Both the position numbers and the translations under genes were made by a program. This document shows positions 4,214-60,537 of a stretch of 64,000 nucleotides of DNA, piece by piece; within the stretch, counting starts at the first letter, position 1; every line of letters begins with the position of its first letter. The stretch is from Rhizophagus irregularis. Lineage: Eukaryota; Glomeromycota; Glomeromycetes; Glomerales; Glomeraceae. The stretch lies in NCBI RefSeq assembly GCF_026210795.1, contig NC_089439.1, forward strand, positions 744,001-808,000, given 5' to 3'. A model generated the notes under the pieces. The model was not told the origin of the DNA. It saw only the letters and a program-made list of their open reading frames with translations, and made no database searches.

Positions 4214-4437
4214 ACCGTTGCAAAATGGTTTTTTTCATTAAATTGAAATAAAAAACGTTTTGCAACGTTTTTTATTAAAATAATTAAAAACTGTTGCGAA
4301 ATGGTTTTTTTTCATTAAATTGAATAAAAAAACATTTTGCAAACGTTTTTTTATTAAAATATTAAAAACCGTTGCGAAATGGTTTTTTTATTCGTTAAAT
4401 TGAAATAAAAAACGTTTTGCAACGTTTTTTATTAAAA

Positions 4438-4724: not shown

Positions 4725-5036
4725 TGATTAAAAAACCGTTGCGAAACAGTTTTTTTTTATTAAATTGAATAAAAAAATGTTTTGCAAACGTTTTTTTATT
4801 AAAATATTAAAAACCGTTGCAAAACGGTTTTTTTATTCGTTAAATTGGAATAAAAAACATTTTGCAACGTTTTTTATTAAAATGATTAAAAAACCATTTC
4901 GCAACGGTTTTTTTTTATTAAATTGAAATAAAAAACGTTTCACAACGTTTTTTATTAAAATGATTAAAAAACCGTTGCGAAACAGTTTTTTTTCGTTAAA
5001 TTGGAATAAAAAACGTTTCGCAACATTTTTTATTAA

Positions 5037-5642: not shown

Positions 5643-5866
5643 TTAAATGATTAAAAAACCGTTGCAAAACGGTTTTTTATTCGTTAAATTGAAATAAAAA
5701 ACGTTATGTAACATTTTTTAAATAATGGATTCGAGTCAAAATCAGATTCATCTGATTTGATCCGTTTGGAACACTAAGTTGATAATCATGATGTTTATCA
5801 ACCAACATATGTAGCACCAAAAAATTTTTTTAAAGATTTTCAGTTTATTTTTTTTGTAAACTAACT

Positions 5867-44100: not shown

Positions 44101-44272
44101 TTAAAAACGCTATTCCTCACAAGTTAATGCGGAACTGCAACCAAGTTTATATATTTATGTTAATTTTTACAAACCTGAGAATGAAAAAAAATTAACTGAA
44201 CCATTTATTATTTATCAAACATCCACTCCAAATTTATCTATGAATTTTGCAATGTGTTCAGTAGATGATAAG

Positions 44273-44755
44273 TCGTCGGGCTGGTAGTGTGTCTCGCTAG
44301 CGCTCAACCCACCTCGGCCTCGCGGCCTCGCAGTACCTACATCCCCCCTCCGTGGGGTAGGGAATCCCCTATATCTGTCACCATCTGTCATTAACATCTG
44401 TCATATAATAATATACTAAAAAAGAATGAAATAAGGGAAAAGAGAGGAAAATACGATAGAATCAGAGGGGTATGACAGATATGACGGATATGACAGATGT
44501 TTCAGAAAAATCGGGAGAGGATACTCCCAGAAAAAAGTTTTGATTTTACCCCCCCAGATCTGTCATTCTGTCATAGATCTGTCATATGATCAGGATTCAG
44601 TCTATTCATCTGTCGGAAGCAGTGAGATAGCAAACCGAGTAAACAGGTAGGTTAATAGCCCCTAGAAGGTCTGTAAAGCCACAGAGAGATAACCGGGTAG
44701 AAGCGCGAATCTTTGGAAAAAATATATTCGGCAATTGAAGATTAGGTAACTATAA
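44273..44755 (+). repeat. Left terminal inverted repeat of the Polinton-like element
   Basis: Begins tcgtcgggctggtagtgtgt and contains several copies of gacagatatgac-like motifs, likely recognition or origin sequences. The inner boundary lies at ggtaactataa. Confidence 0.9.
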
Positions 44756-44765
44756 GTAACATACA

Positions 44766-45281
44766 ATGATAAACTTACACGCCGCCACTTCTCTTGCCGA
44801 AGATCTTGGTCTCGATCTTGTAGACATCTATGGAATCCGTAAATGGATCCAAATGCAGGCTTCGCCCTTCAACGACCCGGACATAGTAAGAGAGATGGTC
44901 AGAAACCTTCCGATCAAAGAATTCGGAAAACATCTCAAGATAAACAGACTCTGGTACAACGGTTGTAAAGCCGAGTTGTGGAAGCGATATAAAGAAGCTG
45001 AGGAGGTATACAAACAGGCAGTAGACTACTACAGGGAGGCCATTGGCAATTTCAATGAAGCCGATCAGAAAAAATACACTAGGTTCGCAGGAATGGTGGC
45101 AGTAGAAAGAGCTCTTCTCAGATGTGGCTTTATAACGCAAGAGTCCGACTGGGAGAAATGGACTCAAATAACGTACAACATCCAATTGCTTAAGGAAGGC
45201 CGCACTCTTGATGACTCGGACGATGAATCAGATGATGGAGAGGTATCTCTCGATGACTCGGATGATGAGGAATACTTTTAG
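44766..45281 (+). CDS. Polinton-like element: acidic-tailed protein, 171 aa
   Basis: First gene inside the left repeat, about ten bases from its inner edge. It is helical and mixed-charge (KAELWKRYKEAEEVYKQAVD resembles a single TPR-like hairpin) and ends in a strongly acidic tail (DDSDDESDDGE). I recognise no family. It points inwards towards a zinc-ribbon ORF on the other strand. The acidic tail would suit a DNA- or histone-facing accessory protein, but that is speculation. Confidence 0.65.
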   Translation: MINLHAATSLAEDLGLDLVDIYGIRKWIQMQASPFNDPDIVREMVRNLPIKEFGKHLKINRLWYNGCKAELWKRYKEAEEVYKQAVDYYREAIGNFNEADQKKYTRFAGMVAVERALLRCGFITQESDWEKWTQITYNIQLLKEGRTLDDSDDESDDGEVSLDDSDDEEYF

Positions 45282-45290
45282 AAGGCGGTA

Positions 45291-45611
45291 CTAATCTGTC
45301 TTTCTCTTTTTTGCTTCCTTAAGGCATTTATCAATACACTGTTTACACGCGTCATCAGACTCTAAAATTTTTTGCCCAAGTTTTTTGCATTGCCTATTAT
45401 ACGCCGTCTGATGTCTTTTAGCCGCGGTTTCTTTTTTCTTCTCCTTGGTTTTCTTTTTGATAACCCAGTCTATCCCAGTAAAAGTATTCTTATGCATCCC
45501 ACAAACTACACAGTCACCATGTAAACGATAGCGGCCATTTGTGGTCATATCTTGTATTTCACTAGCAGTCTCGGTTTCCTTCTTACACTTTAGGCAGTAA
45601 AATCGTGTCAT
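45291..45611 (-). CDS. Polinton-like element: small zinc-ribbon protein, 106 aa
   Basis: I chose the internal Met at 45,611 because the residues before it lie over the integrase gene on the other strand. The first 50 residues hold FYCLKCKKET, then NGRYRLHGDCVVCG, a two-CxxC ribbon of the DUF5679 type. I know that type from adenovirus-like, Polinton and giant-virus proteins. The remainder is a very basic Lys-rich tail with a final Cys pair, which suits nucleic-acid binding. It converges with the neighbouring plus-strand gene. Confidence 0.65.
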   Translation of the reverse strand: MTRFYCLKCKKETETASEIQDMTTNGRYRLHGDCVVCGMHKNTFTGIDWVIKKKTKEKKKETAAKRHQTAYNRQCKKLGQKILESDDACKQCIDKCLKEAKKRKTD

Positions 45612-45655
45612 CTTAAGATTTGAAGTCCGAAATCTTTCCTTTAATTTGTCGTAAT

Positions 45656-46747
45656 ATGTCGCATTTAGAGAATTATTACAAATACTACAATCTCTCCGGA
45701 GTACCGGCACGAATTCTAAAAGGTGAGGAGCACTACAACCTATATAAAAAGCCCCTAAAGGAGAAGTCATCAGAGCGTCCACAAGTAGTTGTATGGAAAC
45801 CAAATGCAACACATCAGGCAGATCTTGCAGAGATGCCAGTCGACCCCAAAGGATTCCACTATTTCCTCGTAGTGGTGGAAGTCGCGGGTAAACAAGTCGA
45901 TGCAGAACCCCTAAAGGATAAAACTGCAAATAGGGTTCTAAACGGGTTTGTCAAAATCTACAGAAGAAATCGTATTAAGCCACCAACACACAGACTGGAG
46001 ACAGATTCCGGATCAGAATTCACTAACGACCAGGTACGTGATTTTTTCCTGAACAGCCTAGGGGTAATGATGAGGTTCGGCGAACCAGGAAGACACAAAC
46101 AGCAATCATACGCTGAACGAGCCATCCAAGCAATCCAGGAACCTCTCCTAAAACGAATGGTGGCACAGGAGTTGAAGACCGGGGTGACATCCGTGGAATG
46201 GTCAGAAGATTTCCGTGATGTAGTTAATAAAATAGATGAAATCTGGCAGAGAAATCCCCCAGACATTCCGACAGGGTCACCCAAAGTGTCAAAAAAGACA
46301 GAACTTCTCTCTGAAGGAACACATGTCCGAGTCAAGTTAGACGAACCTATTTCAGTACTCGGGAATAAACTCCATGGAAAATTTCGTACAGGTGACATAA
46401 GATGGAATCCCAATATCCGTGTCATCAAAAAAATGATCCTCTCACCCGAACAGCCTCCTACGTATCTTCTTGATGGACCACACGGGCGTCTAGGTGTATC
46501 CAGATGTGCGTACACCCGAAAAGAGTTGCAGATTGTTCCAGAAAATGAACATCCCCCACCTGACTCCGTGATAAGAGGGCAACCCGAAAGATTTGTACCT
46601 GAGCGGATACTCCGGCATCGCATCAGGAAGGGTCAAGACCAGTATCTAGTCAAGTGGGAACGATACCCAGATACCGAAGCCACTTGGGAACCCGCTGACC
46701 GGTTGGAGGAGGATGTCCCTGCCTTAATCCGCAAATTTTGGGAATAA
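45656..46747 (+). CDS. Polinton-like element: DDE integrase with chromodomain, 363 aa
   Basis: The rve-type catalytic core has acidic positions D56 (HQADLAEMP), D117 (ETDSGSEFT) and E154 (SYAERAIQ), giving a D,D-36-E spacing. A C-terminal chromodomain (about residues 315-362, YLVKWERYPDTEATWEPADR) resembles those used by integrases to target methylated chromatin. It would insert the element and generate the 6-bp duplication. I start at MSHLENYY. The ORF is open back to an earlier Met, but those codons overlap the divergent zinc-ribbon gene. No reverse transcriptase or RNase H adjoins it, so it is not part of an LTR element inserted here. Confidence 0.9.
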   Translation: MSHLENYYKYYNLSGVPARILKGEEHYNLYKKPLKEKSSERPQVVVWKPNATHQADLAEMPVDPKGFHYFLVVVEVAGKQVDAEPLKDKTANRVLNGFVKIYRRNRIKPPTHRLETDSGSEFTNDQVRDFFLNSLGVMMRFGEPGRHKQQSYAERAIQAIQEPLLKRMVAQELKTGVTSVEWSEDFRDVVNKIDEIWQRNPPDIPTGSPKVSKKTELLSEGTHVRVKLDEPISVLGNKLHGKFRTGDIRWNPNIRVIKKMILSPEQPPTYLLDGPHGRLGVSRCAYTRKELQIVPENEHPPPDSVIRGQPERFVPERILRHRIRKGQDQYLVKWERYPDTEATWEPADRLEEDVPALIRKFWE

Positions 46748-46761
46748 AAAATAAATATTCC

Positions 46762-47541
46762 CTATTTTTTGTCTCCTCGATTCACATCAGAAACTATCGG
46801 GATAAAAACATTCTTCTCATTACAAGTAAGGGCGATATGTTCACGTGATTCATGGACATCATAATTGTAACGTTTCAGACACGTCCGGCTCAATCCAATC
46901 TCCCTATGCTTGTAATCGCTTAAAACCGCGAGATTCTCAGTGATTACACAATCAGGGGTTAGTTTGATTGACACACCTTTTACCATGCCGAATGTCCTAC
47001 CAGAACCCGGAGCGCCAGATATGTTATGTGTAATACTCTTGTCGATATCCAACCCTAATTCTTCAGCGGCTTCCCTCTGAATAAAAGACGCGTTAGCACA
47101 AGTGTCTGCTAAACACTGAATTGCTATCCCATTGACCTTCCCATCCAGCGCTAAAAGATCTTTAGTATTCTCCAAACGAGCTATGTCAATATCCATCGGG
47201 TCATCTTCCCTGATATCCTCTTCTTGTTTTTCCTCAACTAGGTCTTCCGGAATCTCCGTACTTTTACGAGCAGACTTTAATTCTTCCCGAAGAATCTCGC
47301 GGAGTAATTTTCTAAAATCTGCAGACCTTAATAAACTTAATGAATCATTTTTGGTGACGGCTTTTATAAGTGTGGGCTTACTACTAGTAACCTTCACAGG
47401 AATCTTAATAGGAGTCATTTTAACTGATTTTTTTGGAACAGATTTAAGAAGTTTCGAGATACTTACACCCTTATCCGAGTTTACTTTTTTTTGTACTTCG
47501 AACCGCACAAATCCGAAAACCACCTTCCTCATCGGGAACAA
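46762..47541 (-). CDS. Polinton-like element: retropepsin-like aspartic protease ORF
   Basis: The C-terminal half (about residues 130-250) reads VNGIAIQCLADTCANASFIQ, with a D-T-C/G-A type active-site motif in the setting of a retroviral-type protease (hydrophobic strand, DTxA, then FI). LSDYKHREIGLSRTCLK follows, where the typical flap/LG strand would be. The N-terminal half is Lys/Ser-rich linker. This ORF overlaps the end of the Gag-like ORF by about 70 bases in another frame, a layout that retroelements are known to bridge by translational read-through. Function would be processing of the particle polyprotein. Confidence 0.65.
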   Translation of the reverse strand: MFPMRKVVFGFVRFEVQKKVNSDKGVSISKLLKSVPKKSVKMTPIKIPVKVTSSKPTLIKAVTKNDSLSLLRSADFRKLLREILREELKSARKSTEIPEDLVEEKQEEDIREDDPMDIDIARLENTKDLLALDGKVNGIAIQCLADTCANASFIQREAAEELGLDIDKSITHNISGAPGSGRTFGMVKGVSIKLTPDCVITENLAVLSDYKHREIGLSRTCLKRYNYDVHESREHIALTCNEKNVFIPIVSDVNRGDKK

Positions 47542-48865
47542 TTTTCAAGTCATCAAAACTCGCGGTATTAGTATCAATATCCATAGCATCATCATTAAGA
47601 TCGAGGTTTCTCATTGCTCGGGCTAATTCCAGATCATCGCGTCTATCTTTAGCCTTCTGAAGTCTCTTTGGAAATCTTTTAGACGTCTCATATCCCATAA
47701 TAAGATCAATAACATGTTGATCATCCTCACTAGTCCACTCAGGAGCATCAGGGTCACCAGGGTCATCACCAAAATCATGATCTACATAACCATCATCCCA
47801 ATCAGGATCCTGATGATCCTGAACAACGCGTGGCCGTGGCTTTGGCCGAACAGGTTTAATCTGTTGTCTATAGACCGGTGGTTTACGAACTGGCTTAGAT
47901 GCTTGTAATTGTTTAAATTGTGCCTGGAAATTCTTGGTAAGTTCCTCGGCCTGCGCCTTGAGCAATTCTTGTAATCGTTCTTGAGTAATAACGTCTGTCG
48001 ACCTTTGTATTACAGCACCTTCGTGTGGAGTCACGGGATGAGTATAGCCAGCCAATTCCTCTTTTTTAGCCTTTTCAATACCCTGGCGCCTTTGTAATCC
48101 ATAGAACATTTCACCCTTTCGTCGCTCAAGATCACTCAATCTATCGATTAATATATTAAGAGGCGCCGCCCCGATTCTGGAAGCTTCAATAACGTTTTCC
48201 GGCAAAAGTCCTCTATAGAACTGGTCAGTAACCATAATTCGATTATATCCTACAATATCCCCAGCCCTCTCAACTCGCTTATAGTAAGATCGAACAGGTT
48301 CACCTTGTTCCTGGTAAAGATTACTAAATCGTATCTGAAGTCTTTCTTCCACGACGGTTGGAAAATTTGTACGCATATGCATAAATGCTTGATCCAGGAG
48401 AATCCCCTGTAAGACTATTGGTTGATTCTGGACAGCAGCATTAAATGGACCTCCATGATTTCCCAACCCATTAACGGGTTGATGAGTAGGACGTCCGCCC
48501 GCACGCCTCCACTGCTCTTCAACTTTAAAATTCGTTCTAACGATATCAGCGCGTGATGGGAAAAATGCATCTCCAACGGTTACCGCCGCATTACCTGCAA
48601 CCCTTGAATATACATCAGCATCAGACCCGGGTAAGTAAGTACCAACATGTAATCCATTAGCAACCTCAGGAACAGCTAAAGCTCTGAACGCTCGGCGAGT
48701 AGCACCGGCTCCACCATTTGCAGTAGCCACTAACCGAATATTCGAGAGTTCCCAATTTTTTCCAGTAAGTTCTGCATCAAACCACCTCGCCGCTTCATCT
48801 CTCATACAGCTACGAAGAACCCCCATCGCTCGCACCCGACCAGGAGGCGCACCGGCATCGTCCAA
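47471..48865 (-). CDS. Polinton-like element: Gag-like structural ORF, 464 aa
   Basis: The sequence carries the signature of a Ty3-type Gag capsid region. AARWFDAELTG resembles the AxxWF start of the retrotransposon Gag family, and RFSNLYQEQGEPVRSYYKRV, VTDQFYRGLLPENV and LNILIDRLSDLERRKGEM resemble its conserved helices (Q..GE.V..Y...F, ...F..GL). A large insert separates the first block from the rest. The C-terminal third is basic and Pro-rich, then acidic, without a CCHC knuckle that I can see. In retroelements such proteins assemble the particle. Here it fills the place of the missing jelly-roll capsid. Confidence 0.7.
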   Translation of the reverse strand: MDDAGAPPGRVRAMGVLRSCMRDEAARWFDAELTGKNWELSNIRLVATANGGAGATRRAFRALAVPEVANGLHVGTYLPGSDADVYSRVAGNAAVTVGDAFFPSRADIVRTNFKVEEQWRRAGGRPTHQPVNGLGNHGGPFNAAVQNQPIVLQGILLDQAFMHMRTNFPTVVEERLQIRFSNLYQEQGEPVRSYYKRVERAGDIVGYNRIMVTDQFYRGLLPENVIEASRIGAAPLNILIDRLSDLERRKGEMFYGLQRRQGIEKAKKEELAGYTHPVTPHEGAVIQRSTDVITQERLQELLKAQAEELTKNFQAQFKQLQASKPVRKPPVYRQQIKPVRPKPRPRVVQDHQDPDWDDGYVDHDFGDDPGDPDAPEWTSEDDQHVIDLIMGYETSKRFPKRLQKAKDRRDDLELARAMRNLDLNDDAMDIDTNTASFDDLKIVPDEEGGFRICAVRSTKKSKLG

Positions 48866-48956
48866 TGGATCAATACCAACGGTATTAATATACCCTAAAA
48901 GTTATCAATAAAAAGATTAAGATCTTCATCTTCCCGACCATGAAATATGGGGGCAG

Positions 48957-49661
48957 CTATACCAACGGCAGCCATATCGTATTTTGTGGATGGTTGAGAG
49001 GAGGTGGAGGAAGGTTCAATTGTCTGATCCGAAACCATTGTACTTGGATACGCAGAGCGGCTATTTGTTGGAAAAGTCGATTCCTAAGACGTCCCAATGT
49101 CCGAATTCCAAAAAGAACCCGATTATTGGCATATACAAGCCGATTTCGTGCCACATCACGCTCGCCTATAGCTCTATTACGTTCACCTATAGCTCTATTA
49201 CGTTCTCCTCTCATAAGATTATATTGCTGCTGAAGACGACGATTAGTCGTCCGCATACCACCAAACTCACGTTCCAATTCAGCCAAATTAGCTTCTAAAC
49301 TAGTAATAGTATCTTGTACGTTATTTAGCTCATCTTGTGTAAGACCTAACAAACCCGTTTGAACCTCGAGTTCATCTTGTAATTCATCACGTTCTTTTCG
49401 AGATCGATCGCGTTCCGCTTTTAATATATCGCGTTCTTCGTATGTTTCTCTACAGCGATGAATTAATAAATTAAGAGCATGTTTAAGACGATGGTTTGCA
49501 TTTTGTACATCTCGATTAACAACCATGCGATCACTGACAGTTAAAAAATCTGTTAGATCCTTAATTACCGCAACTAATGGTATATTATTCATATCACGCA
49601 AATCCCTAGGAGGCGGTCCAGTAGGCTCTGAAGGAGTATAAATTGCAATTGGTGTCGACAT
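48957..49661 (-). CDS. Polinton-like element: coiled-coil protein, 234 aa
   Basis: A Pro-rich start (TPSEPTGPPPRDL) precedes a very long coiled coil (about residues 60-190) with Arg/Glu heptads, including three tandem GERNRAI-type repeats. It lies directly upstream of the Gag-like ORF, on the same strand, and diverges from the ATPase gene with about 30 bases between starts. It could be a separate structural or scaffold protein, or part of the Gag module. Confidence 0.65.
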   Translation of the reverse strand: MSTPIAIYTPSEPTGPPPRDLRDMNNIPLVAVIKDLTDFLTVSDRMVVNRDVQNANHRLKHALNLLIHRCRETYEERDILKAERDRSRKERDELQDELEVQTGLLGLTQDELNNVQDTITSLEANLAELEREFGGMRTTNRRLQQQYNLMRGERNRAIGERNRAIGERDVARNRLVYANNRVLFGIRTLGRLRNRLFQQIAALRIQVQWFRIRQLNLPPPPLNHPQNTIWLPLV

Positions 49662-49692
49662 CGTATTTAAACTAAGATAGAATAAAATTCAA

Positions 49693-50916
49693 ATGGATCT
49701 TTATGTATACAATTTGGACGAGTACACGACCGACTCGAGACAGGGTAATGAGTTTGCCCCATCATGGCCTTTCCGTCTTGCCGTAGCAGGAAGTTCTGAC
49801 TCGGGTAAGACAACTATGATTATTAATTTGTTAATGGGAGACAAGAAGGCAAAGGAGGATGGCGAAAGGTACATATTATGTGATGCGGTAATTCTAGTTG
49901 GCAGATACCTCGATGAACCGAAGTGGGCAGTTGTACGTGATTTTTTCAAAGAAGAAGAAATTCCGTTTACCGCAGTATCCCATAGTGAGATTCCAAATGT
50001 TAAGGACTTCAACTCCACCCAGGCTACTGTGGTAATCTTCGAGGATTTGATGGATGCGCCTAAAAAAACCCAGGATCTCATCACTGGATTTTTTACACAC
50101 GGGCGTCACAAAAATATCTCGTGTATCTATGTGGCCCAAAGATTCTTTACCATTCCCAAGGCTATTCGTGAAAATGTGAATTATATTTCCCTACATGGAG
50201 GTCACGGAAGTTTGACCGATACTAAGAGGATCATCCGCCAGTATACAGAAGAATCGGAGTCACTAGCTCCAGTAATCGATGACCTTACTCTGCAACGCGA
50301 ATTTATAGTATTTGATCTTAGAAGATCCAAGAGCGATCCGTTATCTATTCGGGTTAGATGGGATACTAGTCTCAGTTCGATCACCGATCAATCTCAGTTC
50401 GATCCTAGTTCGATCTCAGTTCAATCCCCGTTCGATCCGAGTTTGAACCCAGTTCGATCAAAGTTCAATCCGAGTTTGAACCCAGTTCGATCAAAGTTTA
50501 GTTCCTATGGCCAGAAAGCCGTAGCTGAAGCAAAAAAGTCCTCCCAGCTAATCGAGTTTGCTCGGGAATATCCATCGCCTAAAGAGAGAAAACACCTTCT
50601 CGTATCTGGTGTTATAGCTAAGAACGCAGATACCTGGATTAAGTACGTCTTTCGGGAAGCCTACGGACTATCTGGTAAAACCCTGGGATCAGACTTCCAA
50701 AAATTCTTAGCAAAAGTACGGGATAGGACCACGAAGACTGAAATTCCAAAACCTGAGACCGTAAAGGAGTTATTCTCCCGATATGAAGTCCTGAAGTCTA
50801 GTCACCCTTTGGATAATAAAAAATTAATAGAAGGCATCGGGGTCCTTTTACAGATCTTTTCTAAGGGTCATATGGACCGTCGAGCATTACGAGTAGGGAT
50901 CAATAGTATTTTGTAA
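49693..50916 (+). CDS. Polinton-like element: A32/FtsK-like packaging ATPase, 407 aa
   Basis: P-loop at residues 32-41 (AGSSDSGKTT), Walker B at 113-119 (VVIFEDL), and the later TGFFTHGRHKNISCIYVAQR block match the A32/FtsK-HerA packaging ATPases of Polintons and large DNA viruses, which pump DNA into particles. A low-complexity linker of repeated FDPS/NPVRSKF units (about 220-275, visible as tandem cagttcgatc repeats in the DNA) joins it to a basic C-terminal domain of unknown type. It is the only recognisable morphogenesis gene besides the Gag-like module. Confidence 0.85.
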   Translation: MDLYVYNLDEYTTDSRQGNEFAPSWPFRLAVAGSSDSGKTTMIINLLMGDKKAKEDGERYILCDAVILVGRYLDEPKWAVVRDFFKEEEIPFTAVSHSEIPNVKDFNSTQATVVIFEDLMDAPKKTQDLITGFFTHGRHKNISCIYVAQRFFTIPKAIRENVNYISLHGGHGSLTDTKRIIRQYTEESESLAPVIDDLTLQREFIVFDLRRSKSDPLSIRVRWDTSLSSITDQSQFDPSSISVQSPFDPSLNPVRSKFNPSLNPVRSKFSSYGQKAVAEAKKSSQLIEFAREYPSPKERKHLLVSGVIAKNADTWIKYVFREAYGLSGKTLGSDFQKFLAKVRDRTTKTEIPKPETVKELFSRYEVLKSSHPLDNKKLIEGIGVLLQIFSKGHMDRRALRVGINSIL

Positions 50917-50929
50917 GAATCTGGTTGCT

Positions 50930-51481
50930 TTAGCAACCCATCTCGCGAAGTTTTTCCGCAGAAGCCCTAAGAATCATGGCACTTTTTTTACGTCCTTCGA
51001 AGTCAATCCGTAGCATCCTAGCTTTTAATCCAATAGCTCCTAAGGCTCGAGAAGCAAAGTTCTTAGTCATCGGATTTCTTACATGATTTACATAGTTCTC
51101 ATAGAATGTAGTAAAGGGTTCATCAATACCATCCGGATATGTATTCCGTAAGAACTGATATAAGGCAATTTCCCCACTGTCACATCCAATGGCTATAAGC
51201 TGTTCAAGAAGCCACTTCCTAGTATCCTCGTATGAATCTCCGTCCATAATTTTCATATCTAGTCTTTGTGTGAATAATTGCGTAAAATCCGCATTACTTG
51301 CCCGACGGATAATCTGGACCAACTTATCCCTGGCAAGTCCCAAGGCTTGTAAAGGTTCACTCTCGTCACCAATCTTCTTTATAATCTGTCTATACAACAC
51401 GCTGGATAATCCTCTATATGCCGCTTTTGCAGAGAATACTCCACAGTTCTGACACTGGTTTATTACGATTGATGTTGACAT
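50930..51481 (-). CDS. Polinton-like element: unknown protein, 183 aa
   Basis: Converges with the ATPase gene, leaving 13 bases. Near the start there are two cysteines (NQCQNCG). The rest is helical with basic patches (RSLGAIGLKARMLRIDF-like end). No family recognised. It is too small for a jelly-roll major capsid. The 51,482-51,809 gap contains short repeats around gaccggagga. Confidence 0.6.
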   Translation of the reverse strand: MSTSIVINQCQNCGVFSAKAAYRGLSSVLYRQIIKKIGDESEPLQALGLARDKLVQIIRRASNADFTQLFTQRLDMKIMDGDSYEDTRKWLLEQLIAIGCDSGEIALYQFLRNTYPDGIDEPFTTFYENYVNHVRNPMTKNFASRALGAIGLKARMLRIDFEGRKKSAMILRASAEKLREMGC

Positions 51482-51809
51482 GGCTATCTTTCTTTGATTA
51501 TTCGCTCACTTAGTATCCTTCACAATCTTTTTTATATATTGTTATCTTTAAATACCTGTCATTTGTATAAAAAAAAATAACTGGCATTAAGGGATCAACT
51601 GTTGGAAAGACCGGAAGACCAGAGGACCGGAGGACTCACCATTAGGAAGCACAGTCCTTGCACAACTTGTCCGTTAAGTCACTTGGGCTTACAGGCATGA
51701 GACATTCCCTACACAACTCAATATTAAGCTCTGCAAGTCTCGGGGCATGGTCCTCCAAAGTTCGTGGATGACCGGAAGGACCGGAGGAAGGTGTCCCGTT
51801 AGTCGTATT

Positions 51810-52226
51810 CTACTGTAAGATAAAATCATCATATTCATCTTGGTCAGCTTGAATAGCGGCTCTGATTTGTTGTATATTATTGAAAGTTAACCGCTGGCCA
51901 TCAAGATTTTCCTCATTATAGCGTGTTTCATTGATGATTTCATCTATAAGCTCCTCCTCTTCAGAATGAACAAGGTAGTAGTCCTCAACTACCTCGTAGT
52001 CACTCTCAACCAGTCTATGATACGTTCTAGTACCGTGTTGAATATAGCGTCCTGTATCTGTATTTAAATATACAGGTTGTTCCTGGGGTGGAGGCGGTAC
52101 GGTTTGTCTACGGACAAGCCTTCCATCGATATAATCATGGGATTCCATAACTATTCGATTAAAGGTATCTCCACCAACACGGATTGGACGTCCGGTTATA
52201 GGATTAGTTATATAAGGGTATGACAT
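51810..52226 (-). CDS. Polinton-like element: protein with two NPxTGRxI motifs, 138 aa
   Basis: The N-terminus reads ITNPITGRPIRVGGDTFNRI, and a second version, YLNTDTGRYIQHGTRTYHRL, follows some 45 residues later. The NP.TGR.I..G...Y..L pattern is known from small adaptor-like domains of large DNA viruses and virophage-like elements. The C-terminus is acidic. Two copies in one small protein suggest a bivalent adaptor. Confidence 0.6.
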   Translation of the reverse strand: MSYPYITNPITGRPIRVGGDTFNRIVMESHDYIDGRLVRRQTVPPPPQEQPVYLNTDTGRYIQHGTRTYHRLVESDYEVVEDYYLVHSEEEELIDEIINETRYNEENLDGQRLTFNNIQQIRAAIQADQDEYDDFILQ

Positions 52227-52578
52227 GTCTTTTTTCTGTACGTGTCTACATACCTAATTGTTATCTTCAATTTACAATAACCAAGTGACATCGTCATCAG
52301 TCCTTGTCAAGGCAAACATGGCATAGTAGCCTTTATCTTTATTAAATTTATTTAACGAACTTACAAAAATAAAATAAAATTTTCAAAGTACAAAAAAGAA
52401 AAATAAAATTAACTAAAAACAAAACTATATAGTCTCCAAAACAGTAATAAAGCTATAAAATTAATTCGAAAGGAAAAAAATCGCATAACATTAAAACTAT
52501 CCTGATCCCCCGCCTAGATATATTCCAACCTAAGAAGAAGCAACTATGCAAACAAACCAACGAACAATGCACCCATTA

Positions 52579-53019
52579 TTAAAATCGACACACCACCCTG
52601 CAAAAGCTGTTAGTAAGTTGCACCGTTAGACGACCCATAAAACCCGAATAGTGATTAAACCAAGGCAAACCATATTTCATCGAGTTCTTTAAATAATCAA
52701 CGTCGGAGTCACGTGCGGCGTCGGAAAGGGTCGGAGGAGGTAAAGTTGAGAAAGGTAAGTACGTGGACTTTGGCAAATTTGAAGGCCGAGAAAGTTTAAG
52801 TTTATGAGTAATATTCATCGCGTTTTCCCATTTAGATTTATCATAAGAGCGCGGTAGCCAAATTCGTTTTCTGATCTTTTGGATAAAGTGATTGTGGATA
52901 GCAGAGATAACCTTCATCGCGGAATTGCGTGGAACAGAAAGTTCTTCAAAAAATGCGACAAAGGATTTCGGAAGACAGCCACGGACAAGGCTATATGAAG
53001 TCCAATCAGTCCTTGTCAA
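52579..53019 (-). CDS. Polinton-like element: ORF resembling a LINE C-terminal tail, 146 aa
   Basis: The segment FVAFFEELS...HNHFIQKIRKRIWLPRSYDK, then WENAMNITHKLKL, parallels the LINE protein at 18,957-20,555, which has FGFLES...IHFKELIWLPRCN, then WEKDRNIERKDKL. The shared IWLPR..(x)W-E pattern and spacing suggest common descent. Short repeats (gtcatcagtccttgtc near 52,290, 53,000 and 53,055) surround it, so it may have been added to the element. Function unknown. Confidence 0.5.
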   Translation of the reverse strand: MTRTDWTSYSLVRGCLPKSFVAFFEELSVPRNSAMKVISAIHNHFIQKIRKRIWLPRSYDKSKWENAMNITHKLKLSRPSNLPKSTYLPFSTLPPPTLSDAARDSDVDYLKNSMKYGLPWFNHYSGFMGRLTVQLTNSFCRVVCRF

Positions 53020-53431
53020 AAAATGCGAGGATGCCTGATGATGAGGTTACATGGTCATCAGTCCTTGTCGCAAAACACGAGGATACCTGATGAATAAGTT
53101 ATTGGATTATTGGCCTAAAAAGCATTCATGGAAAAACTATGGATTATATTACAGAAAATGTGAACGGAGTTCATGTCACGTGATACCCTGAACAAATGTG
53201 TAGAGTGTCACGTGATTTCATGCGGTACGTAGATCATTTCCTTTTTGGGCGATACCCGTTCCACAAAAAATCGATTTTGGTAAAAATGCGTTTGGAACCT
53301 TGTGTAACATAAATTTCCTTTTTCGGTAATTCGGGATTACGCGGTAATGCCGGCCGGATCTAAAAAATATGACTCTGCAGGGTAATTCCTACGAAAGTCA
53401 AGTACAAAATGCTTACTCCTGTTGAGTCCAT

Positions 53432-53836
53432 TCATACCACTCCCAGTCCCCAAGGATCGCCTCCCCATCTTTGTTCACTTAATGCATACTCTATGGTTTC
53501 CCTCTCTTGGGGGTCCACGACCATCCCATTCCTAAGCATTTTCTCCATAATATAAAGCTGATCCTCGGTGAGGCGGTTTATCCATCTTTTATAGAGGTCG
53601 TTTACATCTTCAAACGTTATCCAGTCAATTTCCCTCTTTATATAATGCTTTCCGAGAGCTCGGATTTCACAGTACACATCCCCGATCATAGTGGCATAAT
53701 TTTTCCACCTCTTATATGCCTCTCGACGAACTTCCTGCCACCACACTCTATCTACCTTACTCGCTGCAATAAGGTCAGTATCCGGGATCTTTGCGATAAT
53801 GCGTTCGACTATTTCTACTGGTAATCGGTCCAACAT
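53432..53836 (-). CDS. Polinton-like element: F-box protein, 134 aa
   Basis: Residues 2-45 form an F-box: LDRLPVEIVERIIAKIPDTD followed by LIAASKVDRVWWQEVRREAY, with the LP.E....I...I, L...S.V...W layout. F-boxes link substrates to SKP1-CUL1 ubiquitin ligases. The C-terminal 90 residues are acidic and helical with no known repeat. An F-box carried by such an element suggests interference with host ubiquitination. Confidence 0.7.
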   Translation of the reverse strand: MLDRLPVEIVERIIAKIPDTDLIAASKVDRVWWQEVRREAYKRWKNYATMIGDVYCEIRALGKHYIKREIDWITFEDVNDLYKRWINRLTEDQLYIMEKMLRNGMVVDPQERETIEYALSEQRWGGDPWGLGVV

Positions 53837-53945
53837 GATGTTATGTTACTTATACTATAGCTATCTTCAATTACTGTATGCCTATTACACATGGATAAAA
53901 AATATAGACTAAATTCGTACAGGATCGTAGGACCACAGGAGCCGC

Positions 53946-54416
53946 TTATGCAAGAAGTTCTGTTAAGGTTTTCTCAGCCTCGTTTTTAGTAATAGCTCGC
54001 TTTGGGGGACCGGTTGATGAGTCCTTAGTCGCATTATAATACAATTCGAAGAGGGCCTCAAGCTTATCTAGGAGAGCTTGTTTATTCTTGTATGATTCGC
54101 GGATTTTTGCTATTTTAGCAGTATATGCCGCATTATCTGGGAAGAGTTTTCTGGCCACGAACTTCACATATGATACAGGAGAATTTGCCGTTTGGATTCG
54201 CTTGATATACTTCACGTGGTCCTGGACGAGGTAACTGGTTTTGCTAAACCCAGATACTAATGCGACTACTATAGTATCTTTTAATGCGCGGATAATCTTG
54301 GGGACAGTTTCGTCAGAGACAACATTAGGCTGAATGCGCGATGCCTCGTAAATAACCTCCTCACTAGTGCTGTCAGTGCTGTTAACAATGCTTGCGAATT
54401 CGGTATATGTTGACAT
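53946..54416 (-). CDS. Polinton-like element: unknown helical protein, 156 aa
   Basis: Thr/Ser-rich acidic start, then helical segments (KIIRALKDTIVVALVSGFSK, KNKQALLDKLEALFELYYNA) and a basic PPKRAITKNEAEK end. No family recognised. It lies in the minus-strand block running from the helicase to the F-box gene, with short gaps that suggest ordered expression. Confidence 0.55.
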   Translation of the reverse strand: MSTYTEFASIVNSTDSTSEEVIYEASRIQPNVVSDETVPKIIRALKDTIVVALVSGFSKTSYLVQDHVKYIKRIQTANSPVSYVKFVARKLFPDNAAYTAKIAKIRESYKNKQALLDKLEALFELYYNATKDSSTGPPKRAITKNEAEKTLTELLA

Positions 54417-54498
54417 GATTCTTTGTACTTTGTAAAAAATATAAATCTTCAGTTACCTGTTCATTCGAATGAGAAAAAATAAATATGAACCTCAGGGT

Positions 54499-55035
54499 TT
54501 ACACTTGGGATACTGCAAGACAGTAGAAGCGTCGCTCGGCCTTTTGCATCAATGGAGAGCCTGGTCTATATAACCAGGGGATAGCGACTTTCTGGATTAT
54601 CCTAGCCGCTTTATTGTTCCTTCTTTCTATATATCTCCTAAAGGCATTCTGGATCATTTCAGCATGATGAGTATAATAGTCGAAATTAAAATGCTTTGGG
54701 CAACTATATAAATGTAGTCGCACCGCTTGATCCATGAAAGCGTCAGCTCCCCATCCGCGATCAATAAAAGATTTACAGTAGGTACAGTACCACCTATTTG
54801 GTAGTCGTGATACTATTCTCCTAATGTGCACAATATAAGCATATACAGCTTGACGAGACCTTGGATAAGGTAGCCGCCTATGAAAACCTATTCTACTACA
54901 AGTCTCATAATATTGCACAGCATTCTGAATGCGCTTAGCCCACGCGTGGAAACTTTCGTCGTCTTGTCTACCTAATCCGTCAGTGTTTTGCATTTGGGTA
55001 TCTCGTAAGATTACATATCCCATAGGTTTATTCAA
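54499..55035 (-). CDS. Polinton-like element: protein with a Cys/His site and IQ-like helices, 178 aa
   Basis: YCTYCKSF with a later HLYSCPKHF gives a CxxC...H...C-type site around residues 80-115. The C-terminus has two IQ-motif-like helices (MIQNAFRRYIERRNNKAARI then IQKVAIPW). IQ motifs can bind calmodulin, and this pattern is common in Rhizophagus proteins. Role in the element unknown. Confidence 0.55.
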   Translation of the reverse strand: MNKPMGYVILRDTQMQNTDGLGRQDDESFHAWAKRIQNAVQYYETCSRIGFHRRLPYPRSRQAVYAYIVHIRRIVSRLPNRWYCTYCKSFIDRGWGADAFMDQAVRLHLYSCPKHFNFDYYTHHAEMIQNAFRRYIERRNNKAARIIQKVAIPWLYRPGSPLMQKAERRFYCLAVSQV

Positions 55036-55086
55036 TTATGCCATCACGATATGTCAGTAAAAAATATACATACCGGTCCCTAGCAA

Positions 55087-56940
55087 TCATGTCCAGATAA
55101 CCTTGTTCGCATTTTTCACATGGCAGTATCCCGCGGTTTCAAACTTGAAAGTCTTTAGAGTCGTATCTGCATTCTCTGAACAAGTGAAAAGCGCGGGGCT
55201 ATCTGGCTGTTCTTCTAAAATAAATCCGTCTGTATGGATACGTCGTACTTTATCCTTGTATGGTTGAATTGCCTCAGATGTGATTTTGCGACCACGTGCT
55301 AATAAGAATGGGGCGATCCTGGGATACTCACCTTTGAAGGGATTACCCGGGTTTGTAAACTGGAATCGCCACTGGTCGGATCCTACTGGTATGATAGAGT
55401 CGAGTGTATGGCCCTCTGGAAATGTAAATGGGTCTGTTTGATCTGCGGTGAGTGTCTTGTAATTACGCTTCCTCTGGCATAATGCTCCCCATAATGTGTT
55501 GAGGACTCGCTTTGCCACGCGGCCAGCTATGCCACCCTGGTTTTTAATTTTGAAGAGGAAGTGTACATACTCACCGAATATTACAGTTTCAGGGATTCTC
55601 GCTTCTCTATCATATATCAATGCATTTGGCTTCCCATCCTGTATTAACTGTATATTGAGACCAAGTTTTTTTGCTCGTTGTAAGTCGATGAATGTATAGA
55701 TTCCCCTTTTATTCTGTCGGAAGAGAATATTATTCCCACTTATTTTGGCACGGAATAATCCATACAAGGCATAACCCCTGTGGTCGACAAAGTCATTAAG
55801 TGTCTGGAATTTACCCCGTCTGATTGGAAAGTTCACGTTTGATTGTTGGATACTCGGGTATAAACTTGTTGCGTCATACTGTCTTCCATAGCCCTTCCAC
55901 TCGTTATCTGCCCAGATTAATCCTCCCATCATTGCATCACTTAACCACTCCGCTTCTATCGGGTCAAGAGGATCATTGGCTGGAATTCCTACACTTAATC
56001 GTTCGAATAACCAGAGAGCCGTTCTTTTGTAAGACCAGTTATGGTATGATAAGTCGATTCCTAAACCGAACTTCTTTGTCTCCTGTAGAAAGGAATTCCG
56101 CTCCTCGTGGATTCTCTGATATGCTTCTTCAAGAGTTTCATATACTCCAGTCTTACGGTTTTTCTCGACGGAGATGAAAGAACTTTTGGAATTCTTAGTT
56201 TTTTGAAACTGCGCAATTGTGCAAGACTTAACTGTTTTGCCGTTGTATATTGTGACTACATTATTGGTCCCATCTTCATGGTATACAATGGGTAAATTAC
56301 GCTTTTTATCTATTTTACTGGGGTGGAGTCTTCCAGGATTTAACGTGAGGGAGTAATGGCCTTCTGATAGGATGAGAGTCGCACGTCTATCGGACTTACT
56401 CTTAGAGATTCGGGTAATGTCCCCCACAATATTAATTGCGAGACTTCCTGCGAGTTGTTCAACCTTGTCCATGCATGAAACTGGGATGGGAGCATCGCGA
56501 TTGAGACCTAATGCCTTTTTGATATACTCGGGCTTTTCGATTGACTTTGGCATTTTAGAGAATGTGCCGTAAATATTTTTTAGGCATTCATACAGGCAAT
56601 CATTTAGCTCCCCATTGCATCCTCCTGCGGCCGGTGGACTATCTCTTGCATAAATTATGAATCGTTCAAAATAATCAGGGTCTGCGTCATCCGGTAGTTG
56701 TGCTTCATCATAATGGTCTAATAGTGAAAAGAGGCTGGCTGGTTGGTTTCCTGATGTCCATCCACCGGGTTTCCAGTTTTCATAGGGAAGTAGGATCTGG
56801 AACTTTCTATCTGGAAATCGCGTCTGGAGAGTCTGACCGAGTCTGGCGATAGCTCCTCTGGAAAAGCGAGCACCGGAATACTGAAGTTCCTTGATGTCAG
56901 GTCGTGTTGGTAAAGTGCGGGCAATTCTTGAGTATTGCAT
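55087..56940 (-). CDS. Polinton-like element: protein-primed family B DNA polymerase, 617 aa
   Basis: Polymerase motif A is YDATSLYPS (D356), motif B is KRVLNTLWG (about 477-485) and motif C is HTDGF (568-572). These define the palm domain of protein-primed PolB enzymes that replicate linear elements from their inverted ends. The N-terminal 220 residues contain NDCLYECL (C115) and SEGHYSLTL (H195), an arrangement like an OTU-type cysteine protease. This reading is tentative. It is the replicative core gene of the element. Confidence 0.88.
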   Translation of the reverse strand: MQYSRIARTLPTRPDIKELQYSGARFSRGAIARLGQTLQTRFPDRKFQILLPYENWKPGGWTSGNQPASLFSLLDHYDEAQLPDDADPDYFERFIIYARDSPPAAGGCNGELNDCLYECLKNIYGTFSKMPKSIEKPEYIKKALGLNRDAPIPVSCMDKVEQLAGSLAINIVGDITRISKSKSDRRATLILSEGHYSLTLNPGRLHPSKIDKKRNLPIVYHEDGTNNVVTIYNGKTVKSCTIAQFQKTKNSKSSFISVEKNRKTGVYETLEEAYQRIHEERNSFLQETKKFGLGIDLSYHNWSYKRTALWLFERLSVGIPANDPLDPIEAEWLSDAMMGGLIWADNEWKGYGRQYDATSLYPSIQQSNVNFPIRRGKFQTLNDFVDHRGYALYGLFRAKISGNNILFRQNKRGIYTFIDLQRAKKLGLNIQLIQDGKPNALIYDREARIPETVIFGEYVHFLFKIKNQGGIAGRVAKRVLNTLWGALCQRKRNYKTLTADQTDPFTFPEGHTLDSIIPVGSDQWRFQFTNPGNPFKGEYPRIAPFLLARGRKITSEAIQPYKDKVRRIHTDGFILEEQPDSPALFTCSENADTTLKTFKFETAGYCHVKNANKVIWT

Positions 56941-57024
56941 TTTTATGTATATGATTTGTCTTCAACTATAAATAATATCTTTCTATATATATACGAAAAA
57001 AAAAGAAATAATCTCAAATAGCGC

Positions 57025-57813
57025 TTACAATATGTCGTTGATAGCGCCCTCAGTATCCTCTTCGTCCCAGTCATCGATGATTCCATTGGCGGCCTCCCAT
57101 TCACGTTCCATATCAGTTTTTGGACGTTCCTCGGGGATCTCTCGCGCTTTACCCTTATCTGCCCTCATAGTTTCATAACCAGAGGGGGTGGGAATAATCT
57201 CGGCATTACGATTCTCCTTGTATATTCTTATTAAATCTGCGAGTTCTTTACGGCTAGGTATTTTAGGTAAGTATCCATTATATTCAATCCAGTCCTTGAA
57301 GCGGTCTACTACCTCCATAAGGTAGTACTGGTACTCGTCCTCAATACGCGTTGTGGGACATTCCTCTATTTCAAACGCGAGTATTTCCCAGTCATATTCG
57401 TCTGACGCGTCTTGGTACTTAGCCCATAATTCCTTACCTGTATTGTAGAGATCATTGAAGACCTGGTCCTTTAAATTTTTAACCCATGGTTTGCGATCCC
57501 ATCGGTGTCTTTCTTGCCAAGCCCAGTGCGCTCGAGTGCCTTCCTTTGGTTCAGGATCCCGGTCAACTTCTGGTTCTGTGTCAGGTTCTGGGATAAATTG
57601 CTCTTCAGAAGCCGGTTCTGGGTCAGGCTTAGTGACAGATGCAGAAGATTCTGCGGGATACTCGGGTTGTTGTTCAGCAGCTGGGTTCACAGTTGTAAAA
57701 TCTGAGTCTGATAATAAGTCGTCTAAGACGTCGTAGTTATCTGGCTCGGGGGCAGAACGGTTTTTCAGGAACTGGGTTTGCAGTTGTAGAATCCGAGTCT
57801 GATAACAAGTCAT
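57025..57813 (-). CDS. Polinton-like element: acidic Pro/Glu-rich ORF, 262 aa
   Basis: The first third repeats EPDPEP-like units. The rest has Trp/Tyr-rich helical stretches (HWAWQERHRWDRKPWVK, YYLMEVVDRFKDWIEYNGYL). The motif YDVLDDLLSDSD near its start is also found at the end of the neighbouring helicase ORF, reflecting a direct repeat in the DNA at about 57,700-57,755 and 57,785-57,840. Confidence 0.55.
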   Translation of the reverse strand: MTCYQTRILQLQTQFLKNRSAPEPDNYDVLDDLLSDSDFTTVNPAAEQQPEYPAESSASVTKPDPEPASEEQFIPEPDTEPEVDRDPEPKEGTRAHWAWQERHRWDRKPWVKNLKDQVFNDLYNTGKELWAKYQDASDEYDWEILAFEIEECPTTRIEDEYQYYLMEVVDRFKDWIEYNGYLPKIPSRKELADLIRIYKENRNAEIIPTPSGYETMRADKGKAREIPEERPKTDMEREWEAANGIIDDWDEEDTEGAINDIL

Positions 57814-59356
57814 CTAAGACGTCGTAGTCATCTAGCTTGGGGGCAGATGGTTTTTCTTCCCTTAACTCTTGTAAACGTTCTTTTAAGTGGTCAGGCTTAG
57901 GTGGAAGCGGTGGAGGAGTTTTGCGAATTACAGGTGCGGGTTTTTCTTCAACGGGTTTGGGTTTTTCCTCTGTGGGTTCGGGGTTTTTCTCAGCGGATTT
58001 TTCCTCAGCGGGTTCGGATTTTTCTTGTACGTCTTGTGAATTGTTAGCTGGATTATATATATTTGCCAAGAACTTATCCAAGGCATTGGGGTCTGATGCG
58101 GGTTTCTTAGAAGTCTCTATATCAATTCCTTCTATATCTATCTCGTCTGTTTCGTGGATCCAGTTTTTGCCGAGGTATTTATTGTAAAGATCCTCCCTGG
58201 ATATGCTATATACTCGGGTTAACTTTTTATTTATATAAGTCCGATTACTATTTATACTCAACTCATTTGATAGGATTCTAGAAGCGTTTATCTTTGATAA
58301 GGGTGTAATGCCACGAGTTTCGCAATATGAAGTATATACCCTATAAAATTCTTGAACAGGTAGGTCGGTCATATAATTTTTCACTATGAGGTATGTGTCC
58401 TTTATAAATTGGAATAGCGGTGGAAGAGTTGAGATGATATGTTCCTGTTTGGATGTTGTCATGGGTGGCGGATTTCCATTGAAGTCTGAGTAAGTATTCG
58501 CAATGGCTCTCAAATAAGCATAGAATGCCTCACTGGCGCCTGGGTATTTCATAGCGTCACCGAGTTTTTTGAAGTAGTTGAGGTCTCCCTTGCGGGATGG
58601 TGACACATCCAAGAACACTGTGCGCCTATCATCATTATCCACTCTGAGAGCATTTTCGTTGGTTAGGACGATAGTAGACATAAAGTTTTTATAATGTGTT
58701 GGTGTCTTGTATTTTTCATGGATTTCCATTATGTCACTCGTTACCTTATCCTTTAAAGAGCGATACAGATTATTCCACTGGCTTTTTTCCGTGGGCATTT
58801 CCTCGAGAAGAAGAAGAATCTTACCCTGTAATTGCCCATTGAAACTTCCACGAATCGTCTGAGGATCGCTGGTCTTATAAACGAGTTGAGTGCCTAGGAC
58901 GCTGCGCTGAATGAAATCTGTTATAATGCCTTTGCCCCAACCCTGTCCAGATTTCAGGTAAAGGATCGAGTACATCTTCCTTCCAGCAGATACACCGGCC
59001 AACCACTTGATGATATACTCAGTGAGATTCCAATCACCCGAACACCAGATATCCTGAATGTGAGAGAAGATAAATTTAACCGCGAGGTGAATTGTAGACT
59101 CAAAGGTGGATATCGGACGCAAGACGTGGAGGAATCCCGGGAAGATATTTAGATAGAGTTGGCCGGTTAAGGATCTGAAGATTTGCTGTTTATGGGGATC
59201 ACAGGTTGCATTACATACATCGGTATTCTCGACCATAAACCATTTGTAGATGTTGAACTCGGTCTTTTGAGAGGGTCCTTGTTCAGGTTGTGTGTAGAAT
59301 ACCTTCATAATTGGACGGATAAGTTTACCAATATTTTTGTCAATAACGTGTTTCAA
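57737..59356 (-). CDS. Polinton-like element: SF3 (D5-like) helicase, 539 aa
   Basis: Walker A SGQGWGKG (136-143), Walker B ILLLLEEM (180-187) and motif C FMSTIVLTNEN (225-235) are in the order and spacing of superfamily 3 helicases (DUF5906/D5 type) that unwind viral and transposon replication origins. The C-terminal 120 residues are Pro/Glu-rich (EEKPEP-type repeats). A short minus-strand ORF lies directly upstream (59,353-59,550). It is next to the right terminal repeat and probably leads the minus-strand gene block. Confidence 0.85.
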   Translation of the reverse strand: MKHVIDKNIGKLIRPIMKVFYTQPEQGPSQKTEFNIYKWFMVENTDVCNATCDPHKQQIFRSLTGQLYLNIFPGFLHVLRPISTFESTIHLAVKFIFSHIQDIWCSGDWNLTEYIIKWLAGVSAGRKMYSILYLKSGQGWGKGIITDFIQRSVLGTQLVYKTSDPQTIRGSFNGQLQGKILLLLEEMPTEKSQWNNLYRSLKDKVTSDIMEIHEKYKTPTHYKNFMSTIVLTNENALRVDNDDRRTVFLDVSPSRKGDLNYFKKLGDAMKYPGASEAFYAYLRAIANTYSDFNGNPPPMTTSKQEHIISTLPPLFQFIKDTYLIVKNYMTDLPVQEFYRVYTSYCETRGITPLSKINASRILSNELSINSNRTYINKKLTRVYSISREDLYNKYLGKNWIHETDEIDIEGIDIETSKKPASDPNALDKFLANIYNPANNSQDVQEKSEPAEEKSAEKNPEPTEEKPKPVEEKPAPVIRKTPPPLPPKPDHLKERLQELREEKPSAPKLDDYDVLDDLLSDSDSTTANPVPEKPFCPRAR

Positions 59357-59578
59357 ACTTTTACTATCCGGGTCCCACCAGAAAACCCCATGAGGATCTG
59401 CACAGGGAATGAAATAACTGCAAAGATACCTCTTGGCTTGATCGAGTCACTCATACTCTTTGCAGCGACAATAAGCCGTTTAAGCTCATTGATACTAAAG
59501 GCTTTCGTTTGTTCACCGAATTTGGGGATAACTTGAGCTTGAGTGGTCATTTTTTCGTTCTATTAAATCGAGTACTAA

Positions 59579-60063
59579 TTTATAGTTACCTAATCTTCAA
59601 TTGCCGAATATATTTTTTCCAAAGATTCGCGCTTCTACCCGGTTATCTCTCTGTGGCTTTACAGACCTTCTAGGGGCTATTAACCTACCTGTTTACTCGG
59701 TTTGCTATCTCACTGCTTCCGACAGATGAATAGACTGAATCCTGATCATATGACAGATCTATGACAGAATGACAGATCTGGGGGGGTAAAATCAAAACTT
59801 TTTTCTGGGAGTATCCTCTCCCGATTTTTCTGAAACATCTGTCATATCCGTCATATCTGTCATACCCCTCTGATTCTATCGTATTTTCCTCTCTTTTCCC
59901 TTATTTCATTCTTTTTTAGTATATTATTATATGACAGATGTTAATGACAGATGGTGACAGATATAGGGGATTCCCTACCCCACGGAGGGGGGATGTAGGT
60001 ACTGCGAGGCCGCGAGGCCGAGGTGGGTTGAGCGCTAGCGAGACACACTACCAGCCCGACGAC
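59579..60063 (-). repeat. Right terminal inverted repeat of the Polinton-like element
   Basis: Inverted copy of 44,273-44,755, with no differences seen by eye apart from the outermost base, followed by the second copy of gataag. Confidence 0.9.
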
Positions 60064-60537
60064 GATAAGGGTATAGGATATCAATGTGTTATTCAATTAA
60101 GAAAAACGACTGAAATTGATCCACTTAATAAAGATATTTATTATGGTCATAATTTGGTATTAATTGTTTCATTTCTTTCGTCTGGTTCGGTCACTAGGAT
60201 TGTACAATTAACAGGAAATTATGCGAAAGCTGATTTGGTTGTTAAAGTCCCTTTTGTTTATGGAGGTTATTTATTAATGTATAAGAATAGCGTATTAGGC
60301 GTAGATGGAGTACGAGGGTGTTTACTTCGAGGAGATATTTTTGATACTAATGACATGTTTAATTCAACTTGGGATATACCCCCCGATTTTACAATTCAAT
60401 CTCCATGCATTATTATTTATAATTTTATTTATAAAACTTTGATATGATTTGGAAAATTACTCCAACAGATTTAACAATTGTTTCAACGGATGTGCCAACA
60501 TTTCTTTACATTGAAGGTGAAAATTTTATTTACTGTA

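Follow-up and report, generated by a model that had tools for sequence, protein, structure and literature searches.

A Polinton-like element of Rhizophagus irregularis with Gag and retropepsin genes and a probable exchange of its capsid module

Polintons, or Mavericks (Polintoviricetes), combine an integrase of the rve type bearing a chromodomain, a viral family-B DNA polymerase (PolB), an A32/FtsK-type ATPase, long inverted ends and a short target duplication with jelly-roll major capsid (MCP) and minor capsid proteins and an Ulp1/adenain-type cysteine protease. It is established for these genes that PolB replicates the element, that the ATPase handles its DNA and that the integrase inserts it. 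Here we describe a 15,792-nt (15.8-kb) insertion at positions 44272-60063 of a window of 64,000 nucleotides (the whole stretch analysed, NC_089439.1, positions 744,001 to 808,000, assembly GCF_026210795.1) from the fungus Rhizophagus irregularis. The element has the rve integrase, viral/organellar PolB, A32/FtsK-type ATPase, long inverted ends and a 5-6-nt duplication of a Polinton. Unlike Polintons, it also has a Gag gene, a retropepsin gene and a superfamily 3 (SF3) helicase, and no jelly-roll MCP, minor capsid protein or Ulp1-type protease was found by Pfam among its 21 open reading frames (ORFs) of at least 120 aa. Probably, it is an integrated Polinton whose jelly-roll capsid and Ulp1-type protease genes were replaced by the Gag and retropepsin of a retroelement of the long terminal repeat (LTR) type.

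How does this gene set compare with described systems? The Polintons of Glomus intraradices (= Rhizophagus irregularis) have no detectable MCP, with none yet found (PMC7805220, in part); they and the present element are probably the same. Some Polintons without an MCP also lack protease and ATPase (PMC4028283, in part), whereas this element has an ATPase and a different protease. An SF3 helicase in a gene of its own is described for maviruses and not for classic Polintons (PMC11071308, in part). The element has this separate helicase, PolB, rve integrase and ATPase in common with Mavirus-group virophages and EMALEs, but virophage capsids remain jelly-roll, and no jelly-roll MCP, penton or cysteine protease was detected here. 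EMALE02 may have traded its morphogenesis module with a Polinton-like virus for another jelly-roll set (PMC8547959, in part), whereas the exchange proposed here would cross to a retrovirus-type capsid. Ty3/Gypsy elements (Metaviridae) and the proteins PEG10, Arc and PNMA/MOAP1 resemble the element in capsid fold, in the Retrotrans_gag similarity of a relative and in the CCHC knuckle of some distant relatives, and Ty3/Gypsy also in a retropepsin adjoining and downstream of Gag with a Gag/Pro frame junction. Unlike Ty3/Gypsy, the element has no detected reverse transcriptase, RNase H or LTRs, and has a DNA polymerase and a packaging ATPase. Ginger DNA transposons illustrate a Gypsy-type integrase common to DNA transposons and LTR elements, but polymerase, ATPase and Gag are not mentioned for them in the part of PMC2836005 consulted. 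The initial annotation of this DNA, made from the sequence alone, knew of no family with this gene set; in the open-access literature, judged by titles and abstract openings (subscription journals and most preprints fall outside this coverage), we too recognised no description of a Polinton with Gag.

The element and its Gag-protease module

The insertion is bounded by inverted arms of 484 nt that are 100% complementary in a repeat search and an identity recheck, which confirms the inverted ends proposed initially. GATAA(G) stands at both borders, giving a duplication of 5 nt if the arms are symmetric and of 6 nt with one asymmetric base. Per 2-kb step, G+C is ~0.39-0.44 in the element versus 0.22-0.37 in steps outside. 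PolB, SF3 helicase and packaging-type ATPase, all named in the initial annotation, each have a Pfam match above cut-off. The main features are as follows.

44267-44271, no strand: left target-site duplication, GATAA (GATAAG if 6 nt)
44272-44755, plus strand: left terminal inverted repeat, 484 nt
45620-46747 (first ATG 45656), plus strand: integrase, rve core (PF00665, E 1.3e-8) and chromodomain (PF00385 Chromo, E 9.2e-18)
46762-47541, minus strand: retropepsin-type aspartic protease, active-site motif LADTCA (Asp_protease_2, E 3.4e-8; gag-asp_proteas, E 2.5e-6)
47471-48865, minus strand: Gag-like capsid protein, given as the part left open in the window copy; its N-terminal part is lacking
48116-48355, minus strand: part of Gag (model range 271-350) matching retroviral/PEG10 capsid C-terminal domains
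48957-49661, minus strand: coiled-coil ORF, 234 aa
49693-50916, plus strand: A32/FtsK-type packaging ATPase, 407 aa (Pox_A32, PF04665, E 1.3e-10)
55087-56940, minus strand: PolB of the organellar/viral kind, 617 aa (DNA_pol_B_2, PF03175, E 3.5e-6, just above cut-off)
57737-59356, minus strand: SF3/D5-type helicase (DUF5906, E 7.3e-18; Pox_D5, E 1.7e-4)
59580-60063, minus strand: right terminal inverted repeat, 484 nt
60064-60068, no strand: right target-site duplication, GATAA (GATAAG if 6 nt)

The module of interest spans 46762-49661, an overlap of Gag with the coiled-coil ORF included. The stretches on which the Gag-like ORF was originally recognised do lie within 47471-48865; the frame, however, is broken near 48,900 in the window copy. 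In L007, an intact copy elsewhere in the genome, the Gag frame opens at an ATG equivalent to ~48,973, just inside the end of the coiled-coil ORF. The latter was correctly placed beside Gag and adjoins it in the window, in L007 and in L043, a copy of a second clade (clade II). A Pfam match of the coiled-coil ORF to Mis12, above cut-off (E 4.5e-6), was taken as a coiled-coil artefact.

Is the ORF a Gag? On its own, 47471-48865 matches nothing notable in Pfam, so that this part of the original claim stands through relatives of the window copy, from which the identity is drawn. A relative passes the Retrotrans_gag cut-off of Pfam, the best match of the capsid profile in a PDB profile search is the PEG10 capsid domain, and the predicted model of an 86%-identical Gag matches PEG10, MOAP1 and HIV capsid chains in a fold search, with modest E-values and chiefly over the C-terminal capsid domain. 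Because the relatives match by all three routes, we call the window ORF Gag. An earlier structure model, built from a shallow 38-row alignment, had a pLDDT (predicted local distance difference test) of 35 and was kept out of the fold search. The DTCA-bearing ORF after Gag was rightly seen as a retropepsin, its Asp_protease_2 match being above cut-off.

Of 30 loci in clade I (the clade of the window copy), 27 have an A-run where Gag meets the protease, with eight A in 8, nine in 18 and eleven in 1; in the other three the pattern was not found there. Gag and protease are in different frames in 25 of the 26 clade I loci that allow both to be placed. In clade II L043 the run has seven A, and Gag and protease form one frame of 721 aa; database protein P0001 also continues from Gag past the junction into the protease. 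Run length (7 to 11 across L001-L030 and L043; near 47490 in the window) tracks the shared Gag/protease frame. A -1 ribosomal frameshift was weighed as the mechanism. Copies with nine A would need a -1 shift and those with eight a +1 shift, the opposite one, so that slippage or splicing is as likely as frameshifting. We read the junction as either a regulated or a drifting Gag-Pro fusion.

The Pfam scan took in all 21 ORFs of at least 120 aa overlapping the element. As had been anticipated, none of the 21 matches a jelly-roll capsid family (the small ORFs were not folded), and none of those scanned matches an Ulp1-type cysteine protease, a reverse transcriptase or RNase H. The repeat search listed no direct repeat of at least 60 nt inside the element, only the inverted ends, and gave no direct terminal repeat around the module. 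A double jelly-roll capsid protein has ~450 aa or more. The largest ORF without an assigned family is a low-complexity one of 262 aa, which bears out the initial view that no unassigned ORF is large enough for a major capsid. The remaining ORFs are these.

44766-45281, plus strand: 171 aa, acidic C-terminus
45291-45929 (ATG-started form 45291-45770), minus strand: DUF5679 (E 1.8e-17)
50930-51481, minus strand: 183 aa, clade II counterpart 86.9% identical
51810-52226, minus strand: weak 2-cysteine adaptor match, under cut-off (E 5.4e-4)
53432-53836, minus strand: weak F-box match, under cut-off
53946-54416, minus strand: 156 aa
54499-55035, minus strand: 178 aa
57025-57813, minus strand: 262 aa, acidic/low complexity

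Among the DNA-side proteins, the integrase has catalytic residues D68, D129 and E166 at spacings of 60 and 36. An alignment of 29 PolB sequences conserves the palm motifs and has an invariant N-terminal Cys and His. This pair suggests a resemblance to the OTU-like domain described for Polinton-type polymerases (PMC11071308, in part). Among solved structures, PolB matched none with an E-value of 1 or less, and the ATPase matched a single one (E 0.27), taken as chance. Viral contigs scanned with Gag, the ATPase, PolB and the PolB alignment yielded no relative, nor did a search of a plasmid collection.

Copies across the genome and a second element type

Searches of the organism's own 146.7-Mb, 32-contig assembly found at least 93 matches to Gag, 108 to the ATPase, 150 to the protease, 211 to the coiled-coil ORF and 71 to PolB. 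Linkage was counted on 89 of the 93 Gag, 101 of the 108 ATPase and all 71 PolB rows, after removal of second fragments where a copy was already listed. The ATPase lies within 4 kb of Gag at 78 of the 89 Gag places, with 0.65 expected by chance, and the gap between them is 807-931 nt at 61 of the 78. Around the 71 PolB places, Gag is found within 10 kb in 41 (0.98 expected) and at 10-40 kb in 21; nine have none. With clade thresholds that we set ourselves, the clade of Gag agrees with that of the ATPase in 76/78 cases and with that of PolB in 41/41. Clade II L043 keeps the same order of integrase, Gag-Pro, coiled-coil ORF and ATPase. Among the matches listed, 11 Gag places are without an ATPase and 23 ATPase places without Gag, for which decayed copies and matches beyond those listed may account.

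In a maximum-likelihood tree built from 38 capsid parts, clades I and II fall together in a single group of 18 rows (support 100/99), separate from a more distant set of Gag proteins (type B); the input had been filtered by identity, and several branches are long. For the alignments of this analysis (A1-A5), 38, 50, 29, 41 and 8 rows were picked by hand. Purifying selection acts on Gag: in one pair of copies compared between clades by Nei-Gojobori counting, the ratio of nonsynonymous to synonymous divergence (dN/dS) is 0.28-0.30 in the capsid part and 0.46-0.47 in the C-terminus, beside 0.095 in the ATPase, 0.11 in the part of the protease compared and 0.58 in the coiled-coil ORF. No in-frame stop interrupts 32 of the 70 near-full-length Gag matches. 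Between clades, the integrase is identical at 342 of 363 residues (94%), the ATPase is 87%, PolB ~86-88%, the coiled-coil ORF ~55% and the Gag capsid part (48055-48865) 45-47% identical. Because the capsid part has this lower identity and a higher synonymous divergence (dS ~1.7 versus 0.77 in the ATPase), we suggest that it was exchanged between lineages.

A second kind of element emerged from the protease search, which reached eight distant loci (L045-L052; G000 C3, C8, C9, C23, C14, C11 and C7) at 27-33% identity. Pooled over these loci, not each of which has each part and whose element ends were not seen, the type-B gene set comprises an ATPase of the A32 type (Pox_A32, E 3.6e-8), a PF00136-type polymerase (E 6.7e-42), an rve-like integrase and a retropepsin-like ORF, the latter two under the Pfam cut-off, a coiled-coil ORF fused to a Gag-like ORF (in L046 and L049) and a further coiled-coil ORF with a likely membrane span. 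The ATPases of the two types are 38% identical. L049 Gag is 28% identical to window Gag (E 5e-26), and intact L007 Gag matches six type-B proteins at E 2e-28 to 4e-20 in pairwise BLASTP. Another capsid type has no convincing match to Gag of the window lineage (lineage A): against L007 Gag, L046 gives E 0.011 (and E 0.02 in a further comparison) and P0193 E 0.11. A profile-profile comparison of lineage A and B capsids (100%) was not relied on, the alignments having common rows. L046 (2034-4445) and L049 (2509-4605) thus differ in capsid type at one and the same position, which in both follows a coiled-coil region of similar kind. Comparison of the two loci suggests that the capsid domain was swapped between elements.

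The 120 lineage-A Gag homologs listed, of 190 found, bear R. irregularis names, and none of the 120 has a CCHC knuckle, which is kept in 24 of 110 distant, type-B homologs. Named type-B homologs come from several genera of Glomeromycotina. For type B, the linkage count drew on 54 Gag rows of 91, on 8 protease rows of 150 and, once rows of lineage A and second fragments had been removed, on 57 ATPase rows of 150. An ATPase lies within 8 kb at 14 of the 54 Gag places, with 0.38 expected. The remaining 40 (40-57% identity) have no listed ATPase within 15 kb; P0170, which stands for this group (for example, G000:C29:3004383-3007589), has a CCHC knuckle and a DTGS protease. These 40 places may represent the donor retroelement or another, third element type.

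Beside a broken type-B element in L045 lies a long ORF (372-4070), presumably Helitron-like by eye. Elsewhere in the window there are tandem arrays at 2134-5720 and 15933-16894 with periods of ~79 and 102 nt, and a ~1.5-kb stretch in two copies ~3.5 kb apart (30157-31737 and 33710-35172), 80-97% identical in pieces. On the minus strand at 18957-22302, ORFs with YTDGS and YMDD-like stretches look by eye like RNase H and reverse transcriptase remnants, which we take to be those of a separate retroelement.

Alternative explanations and a proposed cycle

Could the module be debris rather than part of the element? A single insertion of an LTR retrotransposon into a Polinton would explain Gag and a protease of retroelement type and would have left them functionless. 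The missing direct terminal repeats around the module and the lack of a reverse transcriptase match in the 21 ORFs speak against this, as do the 807-931 nt gap to the ATPase at 61 of the 78 linked places, the presence of two clades and the signs of selection. We rejected a single insertion on linkage, spacing and the two clades and regard it as the most improbable of the explanations; the survey rules it out unless all copies stem from one functionless insertion. Genome-wide linkage, two clades and a second element type likewise dispose of the one-off insertion that would have undermined the initial annotation. Nor do we expect a strongly diverged jelly-roll capsid hidden in the element, with Gag as an accessory. 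Several small ORFs match nothing, and the capsid gene of an early Polinton from Phytophthora infestans was initially overlooked (PMC7805220, in part), but the largest unassigned ORF is too short for a double jelly-roll and the named ORFs (two extended by hand) already fill 12,865 of the 15,792 nt. Five R. irregularis genomes are reported to have no MCP, A32 or D5 gene (PMC10640383, in part). This also argues against a hidden capsid but weighs little, because the A32 ATPase and D5 helicase reported absent are found here, and that search therefore did not pick up these elements. The hidden capsid seems very unlikely to us.

The same low standing goes to a satellite whose DNA is packaged by another virus, with Gag-Pro serving entry or interference. 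Dependence on other viruses, or interference with them, is described for virophages and Polinton-like viruses, and strain 4401 of R. irregularis has a giant-virus region (PMC10640383, in part). Yet the element has a polymerase and an ATPase of its own, and no helper was identified, none having been sought. A weightier rival, though still an unlikely one, is that Gag-Pro is kept without enclosing DNA, Gag acting as an intracellular nucleoprotein, targeting integration or packaging the mRNA of the element, and the ATPase having another task. A chromodomain integrase and residence in the host genome suit a transposon, and the zinc knuckle is missing from all 120 listed lineage-A Gags (190 found). 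Against this stand the tight Gag-ATPase linkage in two clades and at 14 of 54 type-B-like places, the strong constraint on the protease (ratio 0.11) and the retention of a viral-type packaging ATPase.

We therefore favour exchange of the particle module. Replacement by a module of Ty3-type retroelements, as put forward in the initial annotation, gains support from the homology of Gag and protease, their linkage to the DNA-side genes and the lack of jelly-roll and Ulp1 matches. From homology, Gag would form the shell and the retropepsin would be its maturation protease; since Gag is linked to the ATPase and the jelly-roll and Ulp1 genes are apparently lost, the shell would hold the DNA of the element. 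We infer that a shell assembles, that it takes up DNA and not RNA, that the protease cleaves and which way the exchange went. Under this model, the integrase, PolB, helicase, packaging ATPase and long inverted ends would have been retained through the exchange. PolB would most likely copy the element as linear DNA. Gag would be made alone and partly as Gag-Pro across the A-rich frame junction, and would assemble a shell into which the ATPase may load DNA, or handle it otherwise; the retropepsin would then mature the shell. Finally, the integrase would insert a new copy, giving the 5-6-nt target duplication.

What would this mean for fungal DNA elements? No double-stranded DNA virus is known to infect fungi (PMC10640383, in part). 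Tentatively, and with less assurance than we attach to the exchange itself, we envisage in Glomeromycotina an assemblage of viruses or transposons with double-stranded DNA that integrate into the host genome, in which Gag shells may be loaded with DNA by an A32-type ATPase, two PolB modules (viral/organellar and PF00136-type) share Gag-Pro-ATPase, and the capsid domain has been swapped. If true, this assemblage would be the first lineage to unite a retroviral capsid with the packaging machinery of a DNA virus. The element offers an answer to why R. irregularis Polintons show no detectable MCP (PMC7805220, in part), and suggests that a jelly-roll DNA virus lineage can exchange its capsid for a retroviral-type one together with the matching protease. 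Should particles exist, the packaging of DNA into a Gag shell would become testable in nature, in a fungus.

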